Assembly (NCBI RefSeq): GCF_002019705.1 | Contig: NZ_KV917377.1 | Coordinates: 124,001 to 188,000 of the forward strand | DNA: 64,000 nucleotides | Direction: 5' to 3' | Origin: Shouchella patagoniensis | GTDB lineage: Bacteria > Bacillota > Bacilli > Bacillales > Bacillaceae_D | In this document: one piece after another, positions 20,688 through 59,572 of the stretch | Layout of the letters: every line of letters begins with the position of its first letter | How positions within the stretch are numbered: the stretch's first letter is position 1 | Program-made: the position numbers and the translations under genes | The notes under the pieces: generated by a model | The model's database searches: none | The model's input: the letters and a program-made list of their open reading frames with translations, nothing else | Told to the model about the DNA's origin: nothing

Positions 20688-22063
20688 ACGTCAAGAAAAG
20701 AGTAGCAATTATCGGAGCTGGTGCCACAGGTTTATCTGCAGCTTTATGGTTAGAAGACAATAGCAATCATTCGTATGATGTCTATGAAGCAACATCTCGT
20801 GTAGGTGGGAAAGTTGTTACTTATACTGAACATAATTCCGTTGTAGAAGGTGGAGCTGATTCTTATCTAGAACGGAAAGAGAGTATGACTCGCCTTATTG
20901 AACGTGTTGGATTAAGTGATCAGCTTGTGCGTAACGAAGTAGGACAAGCCTATATTTTAAAGCAAGGTCAACTCTATCCTAATCCTAAGCGAACGGTATT
21001 AGGGGTTCCAACAGATCTTGATTTGTTTTTGGAAACCGACCTTATATCAGCAGAAGGAAAACGAGAGTTGCTGAATGAATTTAATAAACCTCGTCTCGTG
21101 CAAGACGGGGAAGATGTTTCTTTAGGTGACTTTTTTGAGTATCGCCTTGGGAAAGAAATGGTTACCTCATTAATTGAACCATTGCTTGGTGGCATTTATG
21201 GTGGGAATATATATGAGCTAAGTATGCGCGCAACTTTTCCTCATTTTCTGAGATACGAAGCAGAACATGGCAGTATTTTACGTGCACTTGAAACAACGAA
21301 ACCAGCAAATTCCACTGTAAAACAACAAGGTATGTTTTTAACTGTTAAGTCAGGCTTGCAGTCTGTTTTAGAAGCGGCAGCTGAACAATTAAAAAAAGGT
21401 GTAATTTATTATAATCACTGTGTCAAAAAGATAAACCGCCTTGATAATGGAACGTACACTTTACTCTTCAAAGATGGTGCCACGAAGGAGTATGATAATG
21501 TATTGATTACATTGCCACCTATAAAAGCGAGTCAACTAACAGGTAGCGATGAATTAATCAAGGAAGCAAGTGTAATGGAAGCAACAAGTTGTGCAACGGT
21601 GGCGCTGACTTTTAATGAAGGTGAAGTCGTCCATAGAAATGACGGTACTGGCTTTGTTGTTGCAAGAGGTGGCGATGAAACAATTACTGCCTGTACTTGG
21701 ACAGATTCTAAATGGCCTCATACCAATGCAAAAGGGGAAACCCTGTTGCGAGCTTACGTAGGGCGACCAGATCATGCAGCAATTGTCGATCAGCCAGAAG
21801 AAGAAATCGTTGAAGCTGTGTTGCGTGACTTAAACAAAGTAATGAAGATTACAGGCAAACCTATTCGCACAAAAGTTACTCGTTGGAAAGAGGCAATGCC
21901 TCAATACAAAGTAGGTCATCTGAAACGTATTGAACATTTTAAAAGTATGCTATCAAACGAGTTTCCAGGCGTTTTTGTAGCGGGAGCGGGTTTTGAAGGC
22001 GTAGGGCTCCCAGATTGTGTGAATCAAGGGATTGAGGCCGCAAAACAGTTAAATAAAAAATAA
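20684..22063 (+). CDS. hemY: Coproporphyrinogen III oxidase HemY (CgoX)
   Basis: 459 residues of an FAD enzyme. The dinucleotide-binding motif [16 protein letters not shown] starts near residue 9, followed by RVGGKVVTY and [12 protein letters not shown]-terminal FAD segment reads [18 protein letters not shown]. It oxidises coproporphyrinogen III to coproporphyrin III with oxygen and feeds HemH. It is the last gene of the haem operon here. In B. subtilis the following genes are yhgD and yhgE; here the synteny ends and a small-peptide cluster converges on it. Confidence 0.94.
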
Positions 22064-22090
22064 CGTGAGCAAACGCTCACGTTTTTTTTA
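22062..22090. terminator. Bidirectional terminator between hemY and the YrzI-like gene
   Basis: AACGTGAGC pairs with GCTCACGTT around AAAC, followed by seven more T residues on the plus strand. The A-rich flank AAATAAAAAAT gives a U-run on the minus strand. The last codon of the small minus-strand gene touches it. Confidence 0.85.
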
Positions 22091-22231
22091 ACGGAAATGA
22101 TTATAATAGCGGACTTTAAGTTCTTCTTGATGATCAAGAATTTTTTTGTCATTTAAAAACTTTTTAAGTTCCCGCTCGGTGTACTTGCGTTTTTTTATTG
22201 AAATAGTTAAAAAAATAAACGAAAAAGTCAT
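22088..22231 (-). CDS. YrzI-like small protein, 47 aa
   Basis: 47 residues: a hydrophobic start (MTFSFIFLTISI) followed by a charged helix (KKRKYTERELKKFL) and an aromatic C-terminus (VRYYNHFR). This is the layout of the YrzI family (Bac_small_YrzI): a short TI-type hydrophobic strand or helix, then KKR and an E/K-rich helix. The ribosome site AAAGGAGG is near consensus, 10 to 12 bases before ATG 22231. It is the last gene of a minus-strand cluster with two even smaller reading frames upstream. In B. subtilis yrzI is likewise the longest gene of a cluster of tiny peptides (recalled, not checked here). Function is unknown. Confidence 0.72.
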   Translation of the reverse strand: MTFSFIFLTISIKKRKYTERELKKFLNDKKILDHQEELKVRYYNHFR

Positions 22232-22266
22232 AAACTTAGTTACCTCCTTTCACAGAAGGCGGCGCT

Positions 22267-22338
22267 TTAGGTACATCCTGGCACCGTCTCAATTACTAAT
22301 AGTTGTGGATCTCTGTTCAATGGAATTGCTGTAAACAT
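22267..22338 (-). CDS. Putative 23-aa peptide gene in the YrzI-like cluster
   Basis: The frame encodes MFTAIPLNRDPQLLVIETVP-GCT, preceded by GAAGGAG nine bases before ATG. It lies 35 bases upstream of the YrzI-like gene on the same strand. Evidence is the good ribosome site and the cluster context; length alone proves nothing. A second, overlapping frame from ATG 22381 (30 codons) has no ribosome site. No known family is recognised. Confidence 0.5.
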   Translation of the reverse strand: MFTAIPLNRDPQLLVIETVPGCT

Positions 22339-22381
22339 TTTTTTCATCTCCTTCTTCAATATTTTTCCAGTTAAAACGCAT

Positions 22382-22434
22382 AAAAAAAACGCAGTTGTGA
22401 TCTGCGATAATAATACGCAGAGCTTTCCCCTGCG
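22382..22434 (-). promoter_or_regulatory. Alternative-hairpin attenuator or tandem terminator in the small-peptide transcript
   Basis: In the minus-strand RNA four blocks follow each other: CGCAG, CTGCG, CGCAG, CTGCG, then eight U. Blocks 1-2 form a 7-bp hairpin and blocks 3-4 a terminator hairpin (22406-22390) with the U-run. Blocks 2-3 can pair instead (TCTGCG with CGCAGA), which would prevent the terminator. This is the geometry of a transcription attenuator; simple tandem terminators are the alternative. Confidence 0.6.
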
Positions 22435-22458
22435 ACCGTCTATGCATTTAAATGGAAA

Positions 22459-22524
22459 TTAACGAACGGAAGGTGAACAAGATGTAGCATATGAGGTTAC
22501 TTTCTTAACTGATAGTGCTTTCAT
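22459..22524 (-). CDS. Putative 21-aa leader-type peptide gene
   Basis: The frame encodes a 21-residue basic, Ser-rich peptide (MKALSVKKVTSY, then ATSCSPSVR) with AAAGGAG nine bases before ATG. Five of 21 residues are Ser. It is the first frame after a good promoter, and its stop lies 24 bases before the alternative hairpins, so it may act as a leader peptide or be a product in its own right. No family is recognised. Confidence 0.5.
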   Translation of the reverse strand: MKALSVKKVTSYATSCSPSVR

Positions 22525-22563
22525 ATTGTTCATCTCCTTTACATTTTAATAACTTACAGCTTA

Positions 22564-22592
22564 AGTTTACTTGGTACCCATTTAAATGTAAA
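22564..22592 (-). promoter_or_regulatory. Sigma-A promoter of the small-peptide cluster
   Basis: On the minus strand, TTTACA (22592-22587), a 17-base spacer and TAAACT (22569-22564) lie just upstream of the 21-aa frame. Confidence 0.6.
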
Positions 22593-54089: not shown

Positions 54090-54347
54090 AGATGTACCAA
54101 TGACAAGGCATAGTAGTTAAGGGATTATAGATGTAAAGAGAGGACTTCCACGGCTGAGAGAAGTCTCATCTACCGAAACGAATGAACACCTTAGAGGTTT
54201 TTTCCTGAAAAATCATTTTGATTTGTAGGGAAAAACGTTGCTGGCGTTAACAGACAAAAGTGGAGGCTAGCGCCTCAATTTGGGTGGCACCACGGGATAA
54301 ACTCTCGTCCCAGATGATTAATATCATCTGGGACGAGAGTTTTTTTG
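54090..54347 (+). promoter_or_regulatory. T-box riboswitch of hisS-aspS
   Basis: The conserved T-box TGGGTGGCACCACGGG is at 54281-54296. It is followed by an 18-bp terminator (54301-54340, ACTCTCGTCCCAGATGAT and its complement) with a seven-T run. Stem I is recognisable by GGCTGAGAGAAG near 54152. A CAC (His) triplet at 54187-54189 in GAACACC is the likely specifier. Uncharged tRNA-His should favour the antiterminator and turn on both synthetase genes. Confidence 0.88.
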
Positions 54348-57449: not shown

Positions 57450-57486
57450 GTGCAATATTAACAAAATACCAGAAAATTTAATATTA

Positions 57487-57630
57487 CTTATCCAGAGTGG
57501 TGGAGGGACCTGACCCGACGAAACCCGGCAACCAGTTTTTTTAAAACAAAGGTGCTACTTTCAGCAGAACGATGTGTTCTGGAAGATAAGTGAGGTGCCC
57601 CCCTTTTCTTATCGAAGAGGGGGGTTATTT
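57487..57630 (+). promoter_or_regulatory. SAM-I riboswitch (S-box) with terminator
   Basis: The aptamer (57487-57593) has CTTATCCAGAGTGGTGGAGG, then GACCCGACGAAACCCGGCAACC in the usual order, and closes with GGAAGATAAG that pairs with the start. A terminator follows (CCCCCCTTTT with AAGAGGGGGG, then TTATTTTGTTTT). High SAM should stop transcription before hom. Confidence 0.95.
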
Positions 57631-59349: not shown

Positions 59350-59572
59350 CAACTTAAATCCTGAGATGTACGTAAGGACGTTACTCTTTGAGCCAACACC
59401 TTAAAAAAGGGAGCTTGTCGTTGTTGATCTGCTTACATGCCCCGCAAGCTGGGGACGTATAATGATTAATGCAAAGCACCCACCTGCCTGGCAGGTTCAA
59501 AGCTTCATTTTCCTACGGCATACTCGGGATCATACTTATGAGCTAAAGTGACCTAGTTGGTTGCTTTTTTTA
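59350..59572 (+). ncRNA. bsrA: 6S RNA (BsrA type)
   Basis: No open frame spans the region. CTTTGAGCCAACACC, GGGAGCTTGTCG, GCCCCGCAAGC and TTCCTACGGCATACTCGGGA match what I recall of Bacillus 6S-1 RNA. It ends in a hairpin (AGTGACC with GGTTGCT) and seven T residues. The place just before tcdA (yrvM) agrees with bsrA between aspS and yrvM in B. subtilis. 6S RNA binds sigma-A RNA polymerase. The ends are approximate. Confidence 0.85.

Follow-up and report, generated by a model that had tools for sequence, protein, structure and literature searches.

The interval between hemY and spo0B in the DNA window analysed here, a stretch of 64,000 nucleotides from Shouchella patagoniensis, carries on its minus strand a 21-codon leader ORF followed by two hairpins rich in GC, then an ORF of 23 codons and the gene for a YrzI protein of 47 residues. 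We consider it probable that these elements form one operon, in the order leader ORF, attenuator, S1025-like peptide and yrzI, and that its leader senses the ribosome. The computed support consists of matched and covarying strands, of mutually exclusive pairing in folding calculations and of a similar leader before transporter genes. As judged from sequence comparison and folding models, the element is most likely a translation-sensing attenuator, widespread and apparently unnamed; no description of a yrzI attenuator was found in the openly licensed literature, a scope without the main Rae1 papers. A first-pass annotation of the same DNA had described a cluster of three tiny genes of the yrzI type; its observation is right and its interpretation half right, and the two GC-rich hairpins between frames 1 and 2 had been overlooked. 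The features of the interval, in positions of the window, are the following.

22564-22592, minus strand: promoter-like TTTACA-17-TAAACT, in consensus no better than chance, with hexamers and spacing kept in relatives
22522-22537, minus strand: strand 1, the leader Shine-Dalgarno and start codon, from pairing and folding
22459-22524, minus strand: frame 1, the leader ORF of 21 codons, with an AAAGGAG Shine-Dalgarno and an open frame retained in relatives
22469-22484, minus strand: strand 2, the complement of strand 1 within the leader ORF, from pairing and folding
22416-22434, minus strand: hairpin 1 (strands 3 and 4), without a U tract in the window, from hairpin search and folding
22390-22406, minus strand: hairpin 2 (strands 5 and 6), terminator-like, 22382-22406 with its eight Ts, from hairpin search and folding
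22382-22543, minus strand: the whole attenuator as matched by covariance model R1 with 33.7 bits, at E 2.3e-4 over 212 kb and 0.005 over the own genome
22267-22338, minus strand: frame 2, a putative S1025-like peptide of 23 aa ending VPGCT, with a GAAGGAG Shine-Dalgarno and an ending that aligns with S1025-type peptides
22260-22286, minus strand: hairpin over the frame 2 stop, 5' of the yrzI Shine-Dalgarno, from predicted pairing
22088-22231, minus strand: frame 3, YrzI, 47 aa, PF09501 E 1.3e-14, with Shine-Dalgarno AAAGGAGG
22062-22083, no strand assigned: two-way terminator-like hairpin common to the yrzI side and hemY, from hairpin search

The three short frames reported by the first-pass annotation are real, and their Shine-Dalgarno sequences were all located: AAAGGAG, ending 9 nt before the ATG of frame 1 (an in-frame ATG abutting it gives a 24-aa alternative), GAAGGAG and AAAGGAGG. 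Frame 3, which had been called YrzI-like, is YrzI, matching PF09501 over positions 1-45 of 45 with 54.5 bits against a cut-off of 23, and the terminator thought to be common to hemY corresponds to the two-way hairpin at 22083-22062. The reading as a yrzI-type operon, with a plausible Rae1-type peptide in frame 2, is also supported. For the TTTACA-17-TAAACT promoter, the consensus match is not above chance (2 matches in the region against 3.1 +/- 1.8 expected), whereas TTTACA-17-TAnnnT occurs in 11/11 Shouchella leaders examined, near-duplicates counted. In L003, L008, L009, L010, L011, L012 and L013 the promoter spacer contains TGTGAAC, in the arrangement TTTACA-N4-TGTGAAC; this imperfect inverted repeat, which the window has lost, could be a regulator site.

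Conservation of the short frames in relatives, which the first-pass annotation had proposed to search for, was found. Among the window locus (L001) and those of its genus-mates (L002-L017), YrzI is present in 13/13 genomes searched, at 17 loci in total; frame 2 lies upstream of yrzI at 13 of these, one in each genome, and the remaining four are second yrzI copies without frame 2. Of the 116 loci tried, 102 have a leader ORF ahead of their first yrzI, within the length filter of 17-45 aa that was applied. A second yrzI-like gene with neither leader nor frame-2 peptide was seen in L004, L006, L007 and L017, and in some genomes a single leader is followed by a tandem array of two to five matches to PF09501 (L095, L096, L097, L101, L108 and similar). 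Judged by eye, the upstream-type loci L001, L002, L003, L005, L008, L009, L011 and L013 all retain a TGGAA, with A/T-rich sequence after it, in the segment that separates hairpin 2 from frame 2 (22369-22362). The inverted repeat at 22286-22260 is predicted in most Shouchella copies, with bases changed yet paired, and the modelled hairpin may serve to shield the yrzI portion of the transcript or to control it. Elsewhere in the window the plus strand carries a T-box leader (54091-54315), a SAM riboswitch (57485-57592) and 6S RNA (59355-59534).

Leader peptides vary between loci, and what recurs within the ORF is the complement of the leader's own Shine-Dalgarno. The string TCG[AG]CC was found in 56 of the 78 loci scanned (L064, L083, L106 and near-duplicates having been dropped before all 78-locus counts), in the three reading frames 28, 12 and 16 times. 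The first-pass annotation had taken frame 1 for a peptide of interest, a view that is not supported: because the nucleotides conserved in the relatives are spread over each of the three reading frames, an attenuator's leader ORF is the better reading of frame 1, and by comparison of sequences it looks like an element conserved as RNA, not as peptide. The frame stays open beyond strand 2 and has its stop ahead of hairpin 1 in 29/29 relatives found with R1 (leaders chosen with a 15-45 aa filter), as against 0/29 and 6/29 for the other frames. A single read-through product of frames 1 and 2 was rejected, the starts being in frame only in L001 and L002 and not in L003, L005, L009 or L013. A motif near AACTnmAT, outside the model, lies about 20 nt 5' of strand 2 in 49/78 leaders, with 32, 13 and 4 occurrences by frame.

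Pairing of strand 1 with strand 2 is far stronger than in shuffled ORFs in the 69 non-Shouchella loci (-14.7 against -9.25 +/- 0.26 kcal). In Shouchella alone it is not clearly beyond the shuffled value (-10.8 against -9.4 +/- 0.62), and a test for an uninterrupted helix gave 0/9 Shouchella loci at p <= 0.05; yrzI's own Shine-Dalgarno has no pairing excess (3/78 loci at p <= 0.05). RNAalifold predicts the strand 1:2 helix both in 37 sequences from outside the genus and in 9 Shouchella sequences, with the start codon also paired in the latter. Over strand 1:2 and hairpin 1 of the 37 sequences, 92.5% of the cells are paired and changes on both sides occur in 9/17 pairs; the pair counts exceed 500/500 shuffles on all five measures, the shuffles, like our permutation controls in general, not keeping relatedness.

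The stretch from the leader stop to yrzI contains a terminator-like hairpin in 76/78 nonredundant regions and at least two in 63; after one dinucleotide shuffle per region, at least one hairpin remained in 18 and two or more in 0. Hairpin 1 is itself tied to the leader, its 5' arm (strand 3) resembling the leader Shine-Dalgarno, so that strand 2 can pair with either strand 1 or strand 3. Thus L036 has GGTTGAAC in both the Shine-Dalgarno and the hairpin arm and GTTCAACC in the ORF, and L195 has GGTCACG twice in the same places with CGTGACC in the ORF. The match is made locus by locus: in 105 loci (2/107 without a hairpin excluded) strand 2 pairs with its own arm at -10.11 and with arms swapped between loci at -7.86 +/- 0.21, and in 25 loci whose strand 2 sequences differ widely, chosen after exclusion of the 11/105 loci that have no short hairpin, the values are -10.39 against -7.59 +/- 0.48 (p 0.0002). 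The two hairpins are matched in turn. Strands 4 and 5 pair at -13.4 as against -11.4 +/- 0.30 in the 51/78 loci with two short hairpins, the 27 others being excluded; the fourth base of the arms is G/G in 19, A/A in 11, mixed in 3 and not scorable in 18 of these 51. With arms so matched, loss of hairpin 1 can cost hairpin 2, the terminator. A further helix, left out of the model, joins the sequence after strand 2 to that before hairpin 1 (own -7.31, swapped -6.34 +/- 0.32, p 0.002, 53 loci).

The nascent window RNA was folded with and without a ribosome, in a cut form that includes the 5' arm of hairpin 2 but not its 3' arm. Hairpin 1 forms with probability 0.74 in the ribosome-free RNA, 0.003 when a ribosome sits on the leader start and 0.997 when it sits at the stop; for the 4:5 antiterminator the three values are 0.25, 0.97 and 0. 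Helix 2:3 is weak in the window (-0.6 kcal alone, probability 0.27), and minimum free energy folds of longer or full-length L001 RNA do not display the switch, which appears only in the cut RNA. Over 94 loci (11/105 without a short hairpin excluded, among them L001, L003, L009, L011, L012 and L038) the mean hairpin 1 probability is 0.80, 0.57 and 0.85 for no ribosome, start and stop, compared with 0.81, 0.79 and 0.82 for shuffled leaders; a start-to-stop change above 0.5 was seen in 25/94 loci versus 15/282 controls. The short ORF before a terminator that characterises attenuators is found here as a Shine-Dalgarno-led ORF 5' of a U-tailed hairpin, and mutually exclusive anti-antiterminator, antiterminator and terminator pairings are found for the family, modestly in the window itself.

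Frame 2 is a short, Shine-Dalgarno-led peptide adjoining yrzI, with an alignable ending. Short peptides with a common ending occur in 108/127 yrzI loci by patterns that are loose and were written after the data had been seen: 86 are of the EKDST type and lie downstream of yrzI, 22 are of the VKGLT or VPGCT type and lie upstream, and no locus has the two together. L174 and L175, in which a peptide of the EKDST type precedes a YrzI-like ORF, bridge the two arrangements. Counted from the stop, the codons align as GAG-AAA-GAT-TCC-ACC and GTG-AAA-GGC-TTA-ACC, with GTG-CCA-GGA-TGT-ACC in the window. We take the Rae1 cut site of S1025 to lie between GAG and AAA, its Glu-Lys pair. Codon -5 ends in G in 82/86 downstream-type peptides, near-duplicates counted, and is GTG in 12/12 nonredundant upstream-type peptides; where it encodes Glu it is GAG in 34/34 nonredundant cases, against 148/693 Glu codons in yrzI, and the Lys and Asp codons vary. 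This bias suggests a need at the nucleotide level at codon -5, as a cut site would give.

By its ending, frame 2 resembles an S1025 counterpart moved upstream of yrzI. A search for the frame-2 ending pattern in 397 genomes of the order gave 7 matches: 4 in the genus at the expected place, whereas the 3 others, from a different genus, fall within an ORF of no relation. The ribosome-coupled Rae1 decay suggested by the first-pass annotation is favoured by the Rae1/YacP gene of this genome (PF05991, E 1.4e-53) and by the S1025-like frame 2; against it, no Glu-Lys pair is found near the stop, which has Val-Pro in the window and Val-Lys in the other upstream-type loci. Since Glu-Lys is Val-Pro here, Rae1 decay is less certain than in B. 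subtilis. S1025 is described as the first characterised Rae1 substrate (PMC11780869), and S1024, S1026, yrzI, bmrC, bmrD and bglC are candidates together with it (PMC10632193).

Model R1 was built from alignment A1 of 37 non-Shouchella sequences (38 chosen, L031 left out). The window is its top match in the own genome, but only 1.1 bits above a chance match, and the own genome has none at the E <= 1e-4 setting used for other genomes; the second-best match, L137, was dismissed by eye as chance, a terminator behind an isochorismatase-like gene. Eleven of the 13 Shouchella leader loci are recovered at E <= 0.01 (L003 at 0.04, L005 at 0.09), and in 150 genomes of the order R1 finds 85 matches in 74 genomes at E <= 1e-4. 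Leaders of the same plan as the window's are present in L038, L044, L045 and L050, presumably the B. subtilis group to judge from a 17-residue peptide ending EKDQV. No Rfam family reaches its gathering score on the leader of the window or in ten relatives; up to E 1 in seven loci it gave four weak matches, the best at E 0.066, below gathering score and taken as chance.

We inspected 29 of the 85 R1 matches, mostly those not beside yrzI positions among the matches listed, and in 9/29 the nearest recognised same-strand gene encodes a transporter. The best NCBIfam match of L186, L187 and L193 is SmdA, a multidrug ABC protein, with 581-584 bits, below the cut-off of 845, and SmdA is also the best match in L196, through a 287-aa piece starting 1.2 kb on. 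L188, L189 and L191 have ABC ATPases and L195 an MFS protein; L194, which was not profile-scanned, starts almost like L188. The SmdA-type exporters behind R1 leaders are, we assume, BmrC-like. L190 and L192 are ambiguous among the other 20, and most of the remaining 18 have YrzI-like tiny ORFs by eye; three of six tiny proteins scanned from those loci pass the PF09501 cut-off. Hairpin 1 barely changes in folding in six of the nine transporter leaders (L186, L188, L189, L191, L194 and L195).

We propose the following mechanism; that transcription terminates, that the leader is translated, what type of stall occurs and that Rae1 cleaves at this locus are what we infer. With no ribosome, strand 1 would pair with strand 2, hairpins 1 (3:4) and 2 (5:6) would form and transcription would end at hairpin 2; a ribosome completing the leader would cover strand 2, with the same outcome. 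A ribosome held near the leader start, by an antibiotic stall or by slow exit from initiation, would free strand 2 for strand 3, upon which strand 4 would take strand 5, the terminator would be lost and the peptide and YrzI would be made. Cleavage within frame 2 by Rae1 may afterwards bring the burst to a close.

Other readings have to be weighed against this one. The hairpins may instead end an independent small RNA whose strand 2 binds the Shine-Dalgarno of other mRNAs, yrzI being reached by leaky read-through. Strong terminator-like hairpins agree with such an RNA, as does ncr2184/ncr60 between yrzI and yrhG, listed as Hfq-associated in PMC3574147, but it leaves unexplained the locus-by-locus match of the hairpin 1 5' arm with strand 2, the matched arms of the two hairpins and the retained open frame, and we find it unlikely. 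We regard as equally improbable that strand 1:2 only tunes leader translation, as a plain structure or thermometer, with the hairpins acting as ordinary terminators and no ribosome-controlled read-through. The matching of strands 2:3 and 4:5 speaks against this, together with a mean hairpin 1 change far above that of shuffled leaders, even if little change is predicted in many loci, including six of nine transporter leaders.

The reading of the first-pass annotation, a constitutive three-peptide operon controlled mainly by Rae1-linked decay, appears very unlikely to us: frame 1 is kept as RNA rather than as peptide, and a terminator-like hairpin with eight Ts separates frames 1 and 2. In its favour are the good Shine-Dalgarno sequences, the presence of Rae1 and the resemblance of frame 2 to a Rae1 substrate.

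Beyond the window, we tentatively suggest that one leader-RNA class, a relay attenuator based on Shine-Dalgarno mimicry, could run a translation-stress regulon across Bacillales, to which both the yrzI/Rae1-peptide operon and multidrug exporters would belong. Such a leader would read ribosomes held at the leader start, would need no conserved leader peptide and could disable two terminators with one event. Our confidence in this Bacillales-wide regulon was lowered because six of the nine transporter leaders barely switch in folding. According to published data, yrzI and bmrCD mRNAs rise together when the tRNA maturases RNase P or Z are depleted (PMC10100781) and in a whiA mutant (PMC10714963), a 234-nt ncr2184/ncr60 of B. 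subtilis is among Hfq-associated RNAs (PMC3574147), and yrzI of B. licheniformis is credited with an untranslated region of 301 nt (PMC3871023). The attenuator model offers a testable reason for the joint rise of yrzI and bmrCD mRNAs under disturbed translation and places a Rae1-type peptide behind a ribosome-sensing switch. Furthermore, R1 can be used in searches of Bacilli for translation-stress genes that lack annotation, and the leader would be a clear case of an ORF conserved for its RNA and not for its peptide.

The proposed operon can be compared with three known systems. The yrzI operon of B. subtilis likewise combines YrzI and a short peptide, and the final codons of that peptide can be aligned to those of frame 2; there the peptide lies downstream of yrzI, whereas in the window it lies upstream and Glu-Lys-Asp has become Val-Pro-Gly. 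The vmlR leader of B. subtilis (PMC9226507) has an upstream ORF within an anti-antiterminator stem-loop, and a stalled ribosome leads to an antiterminator instead of the intrinsic terminator, which is the logic proposed here. Unlike in vmlR, strand 3 here mimics the leader Shine-Dalgarno, there are usually two hairpins with matched arms, and the genes under control are a tiny peptide and YrzI, whose induction we propose by analogy. The bmrCD genes of B. subtilis are under ribosome-mediated attenuation, and their bmrB leader (PMC4191407) contains a leader ORF with terminator, antiterminator and anti-antiterminator and an antibiotic-dependent read-through; some R1 leaders likewise stand before ABC exporters of this general kind. 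The bmrB ORF (PMC4191407) has 53 residues and encloses the terminator, whereas the leader described here has 21 codons and ends before the hairpins.
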